NCBI GenBank assembly: GCA_900169235.1
Contig: FWCC01000120.1
Coordinates: 124,001-188,000 of the forward strand
Direction: 5' to 3'
Length of the DNA: 64,000 nucleotides
DNA from: Zarea fungicola
Lineage: Eukaryota > Ascomycota > Sordariomycetes > Hypocreales > Cordycipitaceae
Positions 12,579-20,603 of this stretch are shown piece after piece. The notes below the pieces were generated by a model. It was not told the DNA's origin. It saw only the letters and a list, made by a program, of their open reading frames with translations, and did no database searches. Position numbers and translations under genes: made by a program. Position 1 is the stretch's first letter. Every line of letters starts with the position of its first letter.

Positions 12579-15191
12579 ATGCTCTCCTCGCGCACCGTGT
12601 GCTCAAGATGCACCTCGCAGCTCCGTGCCGCCGCCCCAGCTCGACAGCCCGTCGCCAAACTGGCATTTTCGTCCGTCGCCGACTCAACACCCGATAGGCA
12701 GCAAGGGCAATCACCACAGTCCTCTACGCAAGGAAGTAGGGTACAGCGTCATCATGGCGGGTCCCAGAAGCCGAGGCATGGTGGTGCCAGCGGTAACCGC
12801 CGTCGTCCCAATGCCGGCGGCGCATCGGCGTTTGACATGTTCAACCAGATTGTCAACGCACAGGGTCCGGAATGGGCGGGCAAGGCAACTGCTTCTGGCG
12901 CGCCCGACTCATCGGTGGCTGCTTCTACGGGCCCGTCCGAGATTGACTTGACATTCAAGCTGACAAGCCTGATCAAGCGACGACACGAACCCGTCAAGAA
13001 TCGGCTCGAGACCTTTAACGAGTCGATTTGGCCGCAGCTGCAGGCCTACGACACCAATCTGCCGCCTCATATATCCAAGCTCACCAATACATTCATCAAT
13101 GCTGCATGCAAAGATGCGGCCAAGTACAACCAGCCAGGAGTCGGCCTCGAGCTGGTTCGGCTCGCAGTCCGCCTGGGCATCACGAGCCTGGCTGTTCCCA
13201 ACACCATGGCGCTCAGCCTGTGCCATGCCCTGGCCACGGGAAAAAACACCAGCTCATCGCGCAATTTTCTGTCGCAGCAGCTGCTGGAGCTCTGGATGCA
13301 GGTGTCCCAGATGCAGCGCCTGAGCGAGGCTGACCAGCCGCTCCGTCTGGCTGTGCCCGCGTCGGCCGATTTTCGAAAGGCGCTCAAGGCCGCGCAGAAC
13401 TCCGAGGATGAGCTGTATACAAACGTCTCTGTCAAGCCGGCCGTCTTTCTCGACTCTGTGTTTCCGCAATTTGGAAAGGGCCGTGCAAAGGAGCTCATGG
13501 ACGGACTGCTGGCAACACTCTCCGTCTTTTCTGACCCACGGCTCGTGCCAATGCGCGTGCAGAGAGAAGCTGCGCCGCTGCTGCATCTTGCCGGCATATT
13601 TGCCACCGACTACAGCCAAGACGCCGACTCCATGCTGCACGGCCTGTTGAGCAACAGCAACAACACCTTTCCTGCCGACAAGGCAACCGAGCTTGCCGAC
13701 ACCATCAGAAAACAGTGGCCTACGCTTGTCACCTTTTTGACAGATACGAACCAGCCGTGGCGTCAGGGCAATGTGGGCAACAGAGCTGCCGCCAGCCTAT
13801 CGACGCTGCATAAGCGACTCCGCAAGGCCTACCAAACAAGGAATCGGGCCGGCGTGCAGGCCATCTGGATGGAGCTGTACGACGGCCAGGTCGAAAGCGC
13901 CGAGATTCGCGACGCCCTGCAAGCCAAACCCGATTTCATGGATTTCTGGATCTTTGTGCTCTGCGCCCTCCGACTGACGCAAGAGTTCAAGACGACACTG
14001 GAGGTCATGGCGCAATTGCGCATTCCGCTCACGCTCAAGACGTACACGAGCATGCTGCACGGCTGGCGGCTCTGCAAGGACACGAGCAAGATTGAGAAGC
14101 TTTGGGATCAGCTCGTGGCCGCGGGCGTGCCGCTGGACGCGCCGATCTGGACCGAGCGTCTCTCGGCGTTCATCATCCAGGGCCAGGCGCAAGAGTGCAT
14201 CCGGACGGTCGCCGCGCTGCAAAAGAAGTGGGAGGACGCCGTGGCGACCAACACGGTGGAGCAGACGGGCGCCGTGCAGCCGGGCATCGAGATGATCAAC
14301 GCCATCATCAAGGGCCTCCTCGACATGGACCCGCAGGCGGCGCGGGAGCTGCTCGCGTGGGCGCACAACCACGGCATCGCGCCCAACGTGAGCACGCACA
14401 ACATCATCCTCCGCAAGGCCTTTTCCACGGGGCCCGACGACGTGGCCTGGGTCCTCGACGTCATGGCCAAGAGCGGCGTCGAGCCGGACCAGGCGACGTT
14501 TGTGATTCTCATCGAGGAGGTGCTCGCCATGACGGGCAGCGACACGCCGGAGCAGCAGGTCGCCGCCGTGAACCAGGTCTTTGCCGACCTGGCGCGCGTG
14601 CGGATGCGGCCGAGCCTCGAGGTCTACGCCAAGGTGCTGTACGGCGTGGCCTCGCTGGCGGACGCCTCGGACGCGGCCGTCGACGCCGTCATGGCGCACC
14701 TGCAGCACCAGAACGTGCGCGTCAACCCGTACATGGTGACGATTCTGATTGAGCGCGCGCTGCTCCGCGAGCCGGGCTCGTTTGCCCCCGTGCAGGCGCT
14801 CCTCAAGAAGTACGGCATGAACGAGCTGGCGCGGGGCGACCAGACGCTGTGGGAGCGCGTGATTCGGGCCGCGGCCGTGACGGGCCGGCCGGACGTGGCG
14901 CTCGACATGTTTGACAAGCTGGCGGCGGCGGAGCTGCCCGTCACGTCGCTGCCGTGCCTCAAGGAGCTGCTGGTGGCGCTGCTGGACAAGGGCCGCGCGG
15001 ACGAGGCGCGGCGGGTGGTCGGCGCCGTGCTGAAGAACAAGATGGCGGCGGCGGCGCAGAAGGGGGCGGGCACGGACATGCACGATGCGCGGTACTGGCG
15101 GCATCACTTTTGGTTCGTGGCCAAGGAGAACCAGCTGCTTGATTATGAGACTATGCCTTCTGGGCTGCAGCGGTTAATTGACGGACACTAA
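12579..15191 (+). CDS. mitochondrial pentatricopeptide-repeat (PPR) protein
   Basis: This is a single exon of 870 aa. The N-terminus (MLSSRTVCSRCTSQLRAAAPARQ) is basic, hydroxylated and free of acidic residues, as in a mitochondrial presequence, followed by a low-complexity Gln/Ser/Arg linker to about residue 90. The rest is alpha-helical. Helical-hairpin repeats of PPR type are clearest between about residues 470 and 760: TYTSMLHGWRLCKDTSKIEKLW; STHNIILRKAF followed by DVMAKSGVEPDQATF; and EVYAKVLYGVA. PPR proteins bind organellar RNA, so a role in mitochondrial mRNA expression or complex assembly is inferred. In size and organisation it could be the CIA84 or CYA5 type, but I cannot decide which. 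From about 14090 onward the codons become far more G/C-ending than in the first half. A 436-codon antisense frame is a shadow of this bias. Confidence 0.85.
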   Translation: MLSSRTVCSRCTSQLRAAAPARQPVAKLAFSSVADSTPDRQQGQSPQSSTQGSRVQRHHGGSQKPRHGGASGNRRRPNAGGASAFDMFNQIVNAQGPEWAGKATASGAPDSSVAASTGPSEIDLTFKLTSLIKRRHEPVKNRLETFNESIWPQLQAYDTNLPPHISKLTNTFINAACKDAAKYNQPGVGLELVRLAVRLGITSLAVPNTMALSLCHALATGKNTSSSRNFLSQQLLELWMQVSQMQRLSEADQPLRLAVPASADFRKALKAAQNSEDELYTNVSVKPAVFLDSVFPQFGKGRAKELMDGLLATLSVFSDPRLVPMRVQREAAPLLHLAGIFATDYSQDADSMLHGLLSNSNNTFPADKATELADTIRKQWPTLVTFLTDTNQPWRQGNVGNRAAASLSTLHKRLRKAYQTRNRAGVQAIWMELYDGQVESAEIRDALQAKPDFMDFWIFVLCALRLTQEFKTTLEVMAQLRIPLTLKTYTSMLHGWRLCKDTSKIEKLWDQLVAAGVPLDAPIWTERLSAFIIQGQAQECIRTVAALQKKWEDAVATNTVEQTGAVQPGIEMINAIIKGLLDMDPQAARELLAWAHNHGIAPNVSTHNIILRKAFSTGPDDVAWVLDVMAKSGVEPDQATFVILIEEVLAMTGSDTPEQQVAAVNQVFADLARVRMRPSLEVYAKVLYGVASLADASDAAVDAVMAHLQHQNVRVNPYMVTILIERALLREPGSFAPVQALLKKYGMNELARGDQTLWERVIRAAAVTGRPDVALDMFDKLAAAELPVTSLPCLKELLVALLDKGRADEARRVVGAVLKNKMAAAAQKGAGTDMHDARYWRHHFWFVAKENQLLDYETMPSGLQRLIDGH

Positions 15192-15554
15192 GGCACTGCT
15201 GGTCTAAAAGCAGGGGGGAAATGAGTACGCCAGGCCACCTGCTTTGCGCTTTCTGTTCTTCACTTTGTACAACTTCTCCCAGCATATATATAGTGAGCTG
15301 TGCTTGTCAACTCAACGGACATTGAAGCAACTCCCTTGTAGATTTATTTAGCACGCAATACATTGTAAAACACATCTCAGATAATAATTTATTCTTTAAA
15401 ATACTGGTATTGTAGTTGTGAAATCAGATTCTTTCCATTCGCCCCAGCACCGAAATTGCAACGCCAGTTTTTACCCGCTGTTCCCAAATTGTTCCAAATT
15501 TATACATGCATCTTTCCAACATTGTTCTTCTTTACGTCTCCCAGTTTTACACCG
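15192..15554. other. intergenic, convergent 3' regions
   Basis: This 363-base AT-rich gap lies between the convergent PPR and MTW1 genes, with AATAATTTATT and similar possible polyadenylation elements near 15380. No gene is visible. Confidence 0.5.
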
Positions 15555-16884
15555 TTACGATTCGTCCATCTCATTACCCTCATCATCCTGCGTGTCGCCC
15601 TCGCCAGAAGGTGCAGGTGCTTCTTTTGCAGCTGCACCACCACCACCACCACCACCAGATGAGGCACCCAGCACAGCGACAACCCTTTCCAGCCCTTCCA
15701 CCTCGTCCCTCGACAGTCCCCTCCCGGGTCCCTGCCACTCGCCGTCCCGCACCTCGCCGGCAGGGCCCATCTCCACGCCCGCCACGGTCTCGAGGTAGCG
15801 GCGCGTCGCCCTCTCGACGTACTCTGCGCGTTCCCTCCGCCAGCTCTTGTCCTCCCCCTCCTCCCCCTCCCCGTTACCCTCCTCGTCGTCGTCCTCCTCC
15901 TTTTCATCCTCGTCTTGCTCTTCGGCACCGCCGCCGCTGATTTGTGGAATCAGCGTCCGCAGCGACGAGGACAGGGAGCGCAGGGCCTGCAGCTGGGAGA
16001 GCGTAAACTCAGTCGTCGTGGTAATGGGCCGCACCGAGCCGCCCTCTTCCAGCGTGCCCCTGTCCCTGAGAAACCCAAACGCGTTGCCCTGCTGCTTCTG
16101 CCCTGCTGACATCGAGTCGCCGTCTTCGTTGTCTTCCTTTTTAACGGACGACGCTGCTGCTGCTGAGGTGATGGTGGTGGTGGTGGCTTTGACGCCGAGC
16201 GCGGCACGCAGGTTCTTGAGGAGCATGTCGTTGCGCACGCGCTCTGCCTCCAGCGCTACGTGGAGTTGCTGGCTGGCGTGCAGTCGTCGGCGCAGCTGCG
16301 TTATAGATTCCACCGTCGGTGCTGCTGCTGTTGTTGTTGTTGTCGCAGCAGCAGCAGCATCATTAGTGCTGCTACCACCACCCCCTCCAGCGGCGGCTTC
16401 AAAATCCAGGCCTTGATAGTGTGCCAGCTCCATAAACGGCTGGTCCGCCGGCTTGACGGTCAGGATGTTCTGCATGGTGTACAGCTCGAAAATGTCGAAA
16501 TTTTTGTCAATGTTGGTGTTGAGGAGGGTTTCGAGCTTGTGCGTGCCGTTTTCAATCTCGCGCTTGGCCGCCTCCTCCGGGCTCGACGATGCCGCGCCGG
16601 CGCCGCTCGGATCGGCACCGGGTGCGCTTCGCTTCTTGGAGTGGCCGAAGCCAATGTTTTGCGCGGGGAGGCCGATGAGGGCTGTTTCTACGGCGCCGAG
16701 GGCGCGGTCGGCGAGGACATTGACGGCGTTGATGATGTCGTCGAGGAGGGACTAGGAAGACGTTTGCCGCCATGTTAGTAGATTGGGCCCTGGGATAAAC
16801 TTGATACGGGGAACATACGACGGGGGGGTAGCCAAAGTGCTCGGTCAAGAGGTCGTATTCCGCCGCCTTATCTGGCGCAGACAT
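15555..16884 (-). CDS. MTW1: kinetochore protein Mis12/Mtw1 (MIND complex)
   Basis: There are two exons, 16884-16819 and 16751-15555, with a 67-nt phase-0 intron, giving 420 aa. The join reads HFGYPPVSLLDDIINAVN, the diagnostic start of the Mis12 domain, and is followed by REIENGTHKLETLLNTNIDKNFDIFELY. Mis12/Mtw1 with Nnf1, Nsl1 and Dsn1 forms the MIND complex, which links CENP-C and the inner kinetochore to Ndc80. The conserved Mis12 domain covers about residues 10-260 and includes FMELAHYQGLDFE. It is interrupted by a Gly/Ala/Thr low-complexity insertion just after that motif, encoded by GCT/ACA-type repeats. The C-terminal third has a helical segment, a strongly acidic block (EEQDEDEKEEDDDEEG), and a poly-Gly run before an acidic end (MDES). 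Yeast Mtw1 is shorter (about 290 aa), the extra length here being low-complexity sequence. The gene is divergent from the exon-repeat gene. Confidence 0.92.
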
Positions 16885-17502
16885 GGTGTGATTTCGTCTT
16901 TGTTTGTGTTGATATCGAGGGGAGCAAGCGCAGTTTGCGTGGGTGATGTCAGTTGATGGACGCGCCAAAGCTGGTTGTAGGAGACGCGTTTGGGATCTGC
17001 AGAGCGTGTAAAGAGGTGGATGCTGCGTCAAGTATTTACTGGTAGCAGATGCAACGCCAACTAAATTATGCTTAATTTTGGTGGGTGAAGTAAATTGTAA
17101 ACTTGAAACGAATGAATGGTCTGCTGGAAAAAAAATTATAAATTCACAATAAATTCATAATAAATTCAATAAACCTAAATGAGACCCTGCGGCCTGCTAT
17201 CAAGACACTCCAGCGGGTCTCAGGCACAACCGTTTAAAGCTGGGCAGCCTATCAACATCCATCAAGACCCTCCCCGCAGGCCGCATGCCGCAAGCCGCCA
17301 GGTGCGTAATCGATTTGCTTGTCACCCAAGACCCTTTTTTATTTCCCTCCTCTCCTCCTTGTCCCATTCTTTTCTATTCACACATTGTCGCCTTTAATCA
17401 CGCCGAGTCCCAATCAACAGTATTCCATTGCCCGACGCACTCAAGGCTCCGTTACATCGCTGGCGCTTGTTGCACCTTTTCTGCAACGCCATCCCGCCGG
17501 CC
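16885..17502. promoter_or_regulatory. divergent promoter region, MTW1 / exon-repeat gene
   Basis: This 618-base gap lies between divergent starts. It includes an AT-rich patch with repeated ATAAATTCA units (about 17135-17175). A pyrimidine-rich segment near 17326-17395 (TTTTTATTTCCCTCC and similar) looks like the leader or core promoter of the plus-strand gene. Confidence 0.45.
17140..17175 (+). repeat. short direct repeats of ATAAATTCA type
   Basis: Three to four near-identical copies of a 9-12 base AT-rich unit (TAAATTCA with variable spacers) lie side by side in the MTW1/exon-repeat promoter. This is low-complexity sequence and no function is implied. Confidence 0.5.
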
Positions 17503-19210
17503 ATGCCGATCCTAGGAATCAGAGAGGGAGCGGTATGAGACTCCCGCCTCCCAACACATTATCTATTCTTCATTTAATAGTCTAACAAGCTTCTTCTTTT
17601 TCTCTGAATTTTATAGAAAAATCTCGTCGGCCGTGGAAACGATGATCCGTACAAGGAGAAGAAGGGCATAAGAGAATCCGCAGTACGGCATCTACATCTT
17701 TTCCCCCTTGCTTATTCCACATTGCATCTTCTTTTTTTTCTAACAGCTTTTCCCTTGGTCACAGAAAGGTCTCGTCGGTCGCGGAGATGACAATGGATAC
17801 AAGGAGAAGAAGGGCATAAGAGAATCCGCGGTACGACATCTCCATCTTTTCCCCTTTCCTTATTCCACATTACATCTTTTTTTTTTTCTAACAGCTTTTC
17901 CCTTGTCGCAGAAAGGTCTCGTCGGCCGCGGCGAATCCAGCAAGGACCGCTACAAGGATCACGTCTCCCAGCCTCTCAACCGCCTTACCGACCCGTCCAC
18001 GCTTCCTCCCCCGCCCGTACGCCGCGGCACCGGCCTCGCGCCGCCGCCGCCGCCCGCCCCCAAGTCCGAGAAGCGCAAGGTCGTCGCGGCGCCCTCCAAG
18101 TACCAGGATCCCCGCGCCGCGCGCATCGAGCCGCCGCCCACCTTCTCCACGGAAGAGGAGCGAGACGAGTTCGAGCAGCAGCAGCTGATGATTGAGGCGG
18201 CGCCGGATGAGGCCAGGGTGTATCGGACGGACACGACGGGCCTGCGGACAGATCACCTGCCCCCGCCGCCGGGCCGGAGGGATGGTGCGAATATAAGGAG
18301 TCCGCCCTCGTACGACTCGTCCACGTCGGCGGCTGGTGGTGGTAGGCGCTCTGTACCGGCTCTCCCCTCGAGACGTGGGACTGGTTCGCCTGCCGGTGCT
18401 GCGGCTGATGGTGGTGCTGCGGCGCCGAGTTTACCCCCCCGGTTGCCACCCCGACGGGATAGTGGCGCGGCGAGCCCTGCTTCTGCGAACAGCCGTCATA
18501 CGATGGGGACTACTGGCGGTGGTGGTGGGATGCTGAACCAGGGCGCCGTGAGTAGACTCGGGGCCGCCGGCGTCTCCGTGCCTGGTTTTGGAATCGGAAA
18601 GACCAACAACAACAACAACAACAATAGCAATGAGACTGCAGGCACGGAGCAGCAGGATGGTGGCAGCAGCAGCAGCCACATGAATCAGTTGCAAAACCGC
18701 TTCGCCAGGTTCAATACATCAACCTCATCCCAGGATACAGCTGCTGCTGCTTCTGCTTCAGCGCCAACAGGCCAAGGAACGACGTGGGCGCAAAAGCAGG
18801 CGGCCCTCAAGACGGCGTCGCAGTTCCAAAAGGACCCCTCCAAGGTCTCCTTTGCCGACGCCAAGGCCGCCGCCAGCACGGCCAACAACTTTCGGCAGCG
18901 GCACGGGGAGCAGGTCGCCGCGGGCGCCAAGACGGCCCAGGGATGGAACCAAAAGTACGGCGTGGCGGACAGGGTCGGCGGTTTTGCGCAAAGGGTCCAG
19001 GGACATCAGGAGCAGCAGCCGACAGAGAGTCAGGCCGTGTCACCGGCGGCGGCAACAGCAGCACCGAGCGTCACGGGAAAGAAGAAGCCGCCGCCACCTC
19101 CGCCCAAGAAGAGGCCCGGGTTGGCTGCAGCTGCACCTGTCGCGGCACCGGTGGATGATGGTGATGATGTGCCACCCCCAATCCCCATGTCAACACGTCC
19201 AACCTTTTAA
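17503..19210 (+). CDS. proline-rich protein with duplicated KGLVGRG exon modules, unknown function
   Basis: There are four exons, 17503-17532, 17617-17682, 17765-17830 and 17912-19210, all joined in phase 0, giving 486 aa. Exons 2 and 3 are each exactly 66 nt and encode 22-residue modules starting KNLVGRG / KGLVGRG and ending YKEKKGIRESA. Exon 4 opens with a third, truncated module (KGLVGRGESSKDRYKDH), and exon 1 (MPILGIREGA) ends like a module. The rest is Pro/Ser/Gly-rich and probably disordered, with several Pro runs of SH3-ligand type (PPLPPRLPPRR-like and PPPPPPKKRP), an Asn run from an AAC repeat (near 18602-18624), and one conserved-looking helical block, TWAQKQAALKTASQFQKDPS through to QKYGVADRVGG. 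The layout suggests a cortical or actin-associated adaptor; this is inference, and I cannot name the family. The start is the only ATG that joins in phase; more 5' exons are possible. Confidence 0.78.
17617..17911 (+). repeat. tandem exon-intron duplication (two ~148-bp units)
   Basis: Unit 1 (17617-17764) and unit 2 (17765-17911) each comprise a 66-nt exon plus an 81-82-nt intron. By hand alignment the introns differ at about 7 substitutions and 1 indel (roughly 90% identical), while the exons differ at about 12 of 66 positions. A third copy of the exon start continues at 17912. Donors are GTACGGCATC and GTACGACATC, and both introns share TTCTAACAGCTTTTCCCTT before the acceptor. Confidence 0.93.
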
Positions 19211-19614: not shown

Positions 19615-20603
19615 TTAGACCTTCATCTCAGAAAGGCCGTGCTTCCAGACAATGATGTAGGGGGTGACACCATCCTCGCGGTAGTTGAGGAGGACAATAC
19701 TAGAGATCGAATCAGCATGCAATTTCGGTGGTTGGAGCGTCTCGGGTGTAGGTGGAGAGAAAATACGTACAGGCCATCGGGGTTCATGGACTCGCCAGTG
19801 TAAAACTCAAAGTCCTTGAAGTTGGGCAGGAGCTTTTCCTTGACGTATTTCGAGGCACCCTTCTCAAAGGCGGTAATCTCCTCCTCAGGAGCGCCCTTCT
19901 CCTGGAGCTTGGCCTTGACAGCCTTCATGTAGCCCTTGAGGTAGACGAGGTAGCCCTTCTTGTCGAAAGAAGTGGACTGGAGACGGAAGGAGCTGACAAT
20001 GTTGTTGACCTTGACGTCGGCGTCCTCGACGGCCTCCTCGGCCTCTTCGGCGGAGGCGTTGGCACCAGTGTCTGCGGCAGGCGTTAGTGAATGAGATATG
20101 CATCGCCATGTGTTGTCTTGATGATTCTGGCCAGCGGCATAGCACAAGAGCATGGGATACAGGAGTAGTATGCATGCAATGCTGTACATCTGGAGCATCA
20201 TGTTTGGATTGACATACTGACGACGACGGCGCCCTCGGTAATCATGGCGCAGTCAGCCTCGTAGACGATGCCGTCGATGAGCTTGGGCTCGTACGAGTCG
20301 GAGATGATCTCGTCATCGGTGAGGATGTCCTTTTAAGAATGGTGTTAGTGGTATGCGTGTGATTATTTTTATTTTTATCTCAGTGCCCTGTTTAGGATGA
20401 CAGATGTCGCTGAGAAGAAGCCAATAATGCGAGGGTGGTGAGAGGGGGGGCCCTCTGGATTGAAAATGGCGGGGTGCAAGAAGAGGAGGGGAAAGGGACA
20501 GCGACAAAGCGTGCCAGTCGCGCGGGGTTGATTGTTGTGGGTGAAGCTGGAACAGTTCATGCAGCACAACGGAAAAGTTGGAACATACCTTGAAGATGAG
20601 CAT
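19615..20603 (-). CDS. TMA19: translationally controlled tumour protein homolog (TCTP/Tma19)
   Basis: There are four exons, 20603-20589, 20329-20218, 20071-19771 and 19699-19615, with introns of 259, 146 and 71 nt, giving 170 aa, the standard TCTP length. The first exon encodes only MLIFK. Joins restore [29 protein letters not shown] and [19 protein letters not shown] is an abundant, conserved cytosolic protein that associates with ribosomes and, in yeast, with mitochondria under stress. It has a Mss4-like beta-tent fold, with the TCTP signature regions around the acidic loop (residues ~45-60) and the helical hairpin ([18 protein letters not shown]). The C-terminus [13 protein letters not shown] matches the family, which usually ends in K-x-x-K-V or a similar motif. 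The long first intron after a 15-nt exon, and C-ending codon use, fit a highly expressed gene. Confidence 0.95.

Follow-up and report, generated by a model that had tools for sequence, protein, structure and literature searches.

Internal duplications that carry a whole intron along with coding sequence are a known route by which a gene comes to hold more introns, and the Zarea fungicola gene described here adds another case to those of CNN00420 and TOUCH3. In Cryptococcus neoformans, CNN00420 has undergone an intron-containing repeat expansion whose copy number varies among strains (PMC2395259), and the internal duplications of Arabidopsis TOUCH3 are described, in the sections cited here, as having copied an entire intron (PMC4974935, PMC2395259). 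AGGT-type intron gain, as those sections present it, also proceeds by internal tandem duplication, with the difference that exon sequence is converted into the new intron (PMC3443670, PMC4974935).

The Zarea fungicola locus shares features with each of these systems. Like CNN00420, it is a fungal gene in which the repeats carry their own intron and near-identical introns occur within one gene; unlike CNN00420, for which strain variation is shown in the section cited, the joint here, in the one strain analysed, appears to lie inside hybrid exons. As in TOUCH3, a whole existing intron seems to have been copied with exonic sequence on each side, whereas TOUCH3 is a plant gene whose duplication is described as inferred against a paralogue. 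The rise in intron number by internal tandem duplication recalls AGGT-type gain as outlined above, but each copy here holds an entire intron with matching GT/AG ends, so that an existing intron was apparently copied with its own splice sites instead of a new one being made from exonic sequence. We believe the locus offers a clear case from a filamentous fungus, young by its divergence, in which intron number has gone up through the copying of an intron together with the edges of its exons.

A tandem array towards the 5' end of an AIM3-like gene

The array lies within the window, the 64,000-nucleotide stretch analysed here, on a 236-kb contig (236,390 bases) of a 43-Mb genome (43.1 Mb searched). 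Its gene runs on the + strand from an ATG at 17503 to a stop at 19208-19210, and with the predicted introns removed the frame is open throughout and yields a product of 486 residues. All three introns are in phase 0, and we infer that all are spliced, an assumption with which their GT/AG ends and the frame agree. The predicted effects of retention differ: I3 is a multiple of three and free of in-frame stops, and keeping it would add 27 residues without disturbing the frame, while retention of I1 would introduce an in-frame stop and that of I2 a frameshift. The repeat occupies the 5' part of the gene, and the terminal exon encodes a proline-rich protein body.

Table 1. Features of the array-bearing gene, in window positions
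Feature	Position	Strand	Description
Exon 1	17503..17532	+	MPILGIREGA; open frame
Intron 1 (I1)	17533..17616	+	84 nt, GTATGA...TATAG, holds TCTAAC
Internal exon x2	17617..17682	+	66 nt, KNLVGRG-NDDP-YKEKKGIRESA
Intron 2 (I2)	17683..17764	+	82 nt, GTACGG...CACAG, holds TCTAAC
Internal exon x3	17765..17830	+	66 nt, KGLVGRG-DDNG-YKEKKGIRESA; linker 17786-17797
Intron 3 (I3)	17831..17911	+	81 nt, GTACGA...CGCAG, holds TCTAAC
Terminal exon x4	17912..19210	+	begins KGLVGRGESSKDRYKDHVS; stop included
Recent copy, putative natural register	17650..17785	+	x2 end (17650-17682), I2 and first 21 nt of x3
Recent copy, putative natural register	17798..17932	+	x3 end (17798-17830), I3 and first 21 nt of x4

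PF17096 (AIM3) is the sole Pfam match at E<=1, covering residues 45-94 with 21.1 bits against a Pfam cut-off of 25.4, a score that falls short of AIM3 membership by the curated threshold; all seven homologues scanned match it equally weakly (16.1-23.3 bits, again below 25.4). In budding yeast, Aim3 and Abp1 are presented in the sections cited as an actin-capping pair (PMC4114835, PMC12422587). Several public records name homologues such as P0005 and P0023 'GMP synthase', yet the weak AIM3 match was their only one in Pfam when scanned, and the label looks like a misannotation that has spread. A structure predicted for the homologue P0002 from 40 sequences (mean pLDDT 53, pTM 0.21) is mostly of low confidence, with pLDDT blocks of 49-54 across residues 11-40, where the motif repeated in the array has its counterpart, and says nothing firm about that motif. 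A helix-moment test of the motif found none of five peptides notable, 723 to 2962 of 5000 shuffles being equally high.

The sequence-only reading had described a tandem exon-intron duplication in symmetric phase 0, and in this it was right: two consecutive units of 147-148 bp occupy 17617-17911 in an open frame, and TRF calls the array at 17615-17931 with a period of 148 and 87% matches. A TRF scan of the contig, run beside the window on pieces of up to 10 kb at whose edges arrays could escape, gave two arrays of period >=50, this one and one apparently non-coding. The latter, at 1699-1979 of piece L020, is a tandem duplication of period 141 with 82% matches, and its non-coding appearance was judged by eye.

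Where the two units differ

Cut in this way, as an exon and the intron that follows it, the units do give the raw counts from which that reading concluded that the introns are more alike than the exons. Exons x2 and x3 differ at 12 of 66 positions, and I2 and I3 at 7 of 81 aligned positions with one additional 1-nt indel, a likeness greater than chance would give, none of 1000 dinucleotide shuffles matching it in score. The contrast itself is not significant (Fisher p=0.14), and it disappears once the 12-nt linker (AACGATGATCCG vs GATGACAATGGA), which accounts for 7 of the 12 exon differences, is removed (5/54 vs 7/81, p=1.0). A proposed comparison of intron with synonymous divergence gave an answer that depends on the register: over the whole exon, synonymous sites exceed the intron (6/14 vs 7/81, p=0.003), with five of the six changes in codons 1-11, linker included, whereas in the register of the motif introduced below the excess is not significant (3/13 vs 7/81, p=0.14).

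What does stand out is the position of the exon differences. Nt 1-33 hold eleven of them, against a single one in nt 34-66 (p=0.003), and the first half of the exon, at 11/33, is set apart from the remainder of the unit (8/114, indel excluded; p=0.0003). A scan over the unit places 11 of 20 differences in the best 30-column window (p=0.006), with p=0.015 and 0.03 for windows of 33 and 36 columns. The stretch before the linker, nt 1-21, shows an excess that is not significant (4/21 vs 8/114 for the rest, p=0.09), so that it is chiefly the linker that would speak for a greater age of the first half of the exon.

Change in the introns might in principle have been slowed by a conserved regulatory element, for example the TTCTAACAGC stretch that is identical between I2 and I3. 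TCTAAC is a usual fungal branch-site form, however, and is present in I1 too, the intron differences are spread along the whole length (9-11 of 11 positions identical in each bin), and intron and non-linker exon have diverged equally. Such a constraint, raised in the sequence-only reading, is not needed, and we consider it highly improbable.

The family motif and the natural register of the unit

A first protein search returned 18 homologues, the best of those named coming from Beauveria, Akanthomyces, Cordyceps and Trichoderma. A profile search found 1031 proteins at E<=1e-10; the 120 best of these and P0017, 121 in all, were examined, compared as proteins at listed identities of 34-73%. Of these 121, 75 carry the GWxP box close to their N-terminus and 11 begin in the Trichoderma manner, which makes 86 with a recognisable start; the remaining 35 are truncated, run on into an intron or start otherwise. 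The common start reads MSK..D..KNGWHPEK....KGQV/KGLVGRG-linker-HVS and contains a single motif. A count of modules in relatives had also been proposed, and it separates them from this gene: the array is absent from all 86 homologues with a recognisable start, in gene models that can miss short exons, against three motif copies here, and the best internal self-match is 31 among the 86 vs 155 in the Zarea fungicola gene. A short-query protein search for fragments bearing the module gave nine candidates, none at E<=0.1.

The slash in the homologues' start probably marks a phase-0 intron, to judge from protein models in which it appears to have been translated, and I3 lies at the corresponding position. 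In P0008 and P0118, for example, the inserts between GQV and the motif start with V and finish with Q, and these ends match GTN and CAG intron borders. Q, the residue that CAG would give, immediately precedes the motif in 13 models (12 of 103 matched by pattern, and P0079). In P0001, the best hit of the first search, the 5' end read one frame over allows WHPEK.GTTFKGQV, a fit that none of 3000 shuffled peptides allows and that had been spotted by eye before the shuffle test.

The natural unit of the array would therefore span the intron with both exon edges, since the conserved block of the homologues is KGQV/KGLVGRG: the end of one exon, the intron and the start of the next. Three copies appear to be present, ILGIREGA/KNLVGRG, KKGIRESA/KGLVGRG and KKGIRESA/KGLVGRG. 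Counted in this register, and without the linker because it sits at the joint, the two recent copies show 3 differences over 54 exonic positions, all synonymous (dN=0), and there is no exon excess over the intron (7/81 and the indel; p=0.74), on too few sites to reveal the usual intron excess. Hence the introns are not unusually conserved. Their apparent conservation arose because the unit had been cut as an exon and the following intron, and because the linker varies; the exon excess consists of that variable linker and, probably, of earlier divergence at the start of x2. We believe the point applies as a general caution, in that repeats cut at exon borders can show falsely conserved introns when the joint is intra-exonic.

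Adaptive divergence of the modules, with the exon outpacing neutral intron sequence, was another of the causes suggested, and the six nonsynonymous changes in codons 1-11 are what it would predict. In those same codons, however, pN is 0.24, below a pS of 0.63, codons 12-22 of x2 and x3 show no amino-acid change, and the linker varies between species as well, in length too. There are nine distinct linker sequences of 8-9 residues among 10 Beauveria/Cordyceps-type hits, two of them from one species, and KGLVGRG is invariant in all 10 (by reading; the selection pattern required K[GN]LVGRG). With the motif-register changes all synonymous, adaptive change is an unneeded explanation and in our view a very unlikely one.

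The first motif copy is older, differing from the other two at 10-11 of 39 positions. The end of exon 1 (GIREGA) is identical to the ends of x2 and x3 (GIRESA) at 11-12 of 18 nt and looks like a diverged copy of their 3' halves. I1 occupies the same motif position as I2 and I3, but it is not demonstrably a copy of them, 114 and 37 of 1000 shuffles scoring equally high against I2 and I3, respectively.

A probable origin by duplication across an intron

Exons x2 and x3 look like hybrids that start like the terminal exon and end like the exon 1 of relatives. At the start, DDPYKDHVS in P0001 compares with NDDPYKEKK in x2, and at the end, EKKGIR(ESA) resembles the exon 1 end of the single-copy P0014, EKKGIRGQV. 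At the supposed joint x2 and x4 have TACAAGGA in common, which could be shared by chance. Across nt 1-21 of x2, x3 and x4, three sites unite x3 with x4 (two of them within one codon), a single site joins x3 to x2, and at a fifth x3 stands alone. These sites lean towards an exchange inside the exon, short of proof, and they resolve the source of the x3 start, x4 or x2, weakly.

Overall, we think it likely that the array arose by internal tandem duplication of an intron together with the exonic sequence on each side of it, and that this made the hybrid exons. The ancestor would have had a two-exon start, with a first exon whose end was of the '(E)KKGIR..' type, a phase-0 intron and a terminal exon beginning at KGLVGRG, ancestral states suggested by protein comparison at 34-73% identity. 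The duplicated unit would have been the intron with its two exonic flanks, its breakpoints falling within exons, inside or close to the linker/YK(E/D) stretch; duplication would then have multiplied the existing intron and produced internal exons that join a terminal-exon start to an exon-1 end. At least two duplications would be required for the three copies of GIRE.A-intron-K.LVGRG, the last of them younger, and the simplest route for it would be unequal pairing of two copies with exchange within an exon. Consistent with this proposal, each tandem copy holds a complete intron bordered by exonic sequence at either end, and the relatives, by protein evidence, are single-copy with an intron inferred at the homologous place.

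The closest competitor is gene conversion, in which an older duplication of the whole unit would have been followed by homogenisation of the exon end and the intron but not of the first half of the exon. A conversion tract would likewise leave a boundary between old and young inside the exon, but it requires an additional event, and a joint inside the exon is already given by the hybrid exons that the homologues suggest. The similarity also carries on beyond the intron into the first nucleotides of the exon that follows (x3 and x4 differ at 2/21), so conversion would not have acted 'on the intron side' alone, as had been proposed, and with no exon excess in the motif register conversion of that kind explains nothing that needs explaining. 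We therefore regard gene conversion as unlikely, if less so than the other alternatives.

Introners leave near-identical introns and occur in many genes. Independent multiplication of introner-like elements, apart from the exons, would thus lead one to expect a pair such as I2 and I3, and fungal introner-like elements are likewise very similar to one another, in many genes there and in one gene here. I2 and I3, searched as DNA across the 43.1-Mb genome with simple repeats and very common words skipped, matched nothing elsewhere, and a 34-nt core pattern allowing up to 3 mismatches gave two genome hits, I2 and I3 themselves (control, 0). The copies in many unrelated genes that mark introners are thus absent from the 43.1 Mb searched, and the likeness of I2 and I3 extends into their flanking exons. 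To introners we give practically no credence, and internal duplication of the intron with its exonic flanks is the reading we retain.

The sole apparently unusual point is the combination of the array with an apparent loss of GWHPEK: the MSK..D..KNGWHPEK start, whose GWxP form is the common one among the homologues examined, is missing from the Zarea fungicola gene. An upstream exon carrying GWHPEK was sought by tblastn with five homologue N-termini against 15000-18100, which gave weak matches that lack the box. It is a speculative thought, and one we hold with more doubt than belief, that the family start was lost and replaced by a growing array of intron-split motifs that may differ in copy number from strain to strain. 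Were this so, the gene would be a natural system in which to watch intron number change through unequal exchange within exons.

Around the array-bearing gene, the window encodes a pentatricopeptide-repeat protein of 870 residues at 12579-15191 on the + strand (PF13041, E 3.9e-11) and, on the - strand, part of a Mis12 kinetochore protein at 15558-16475 (PF05859, E 3.7e-24) and part of a TCTP gene at 19623-20201 (PF00838, E 4.5e-39).
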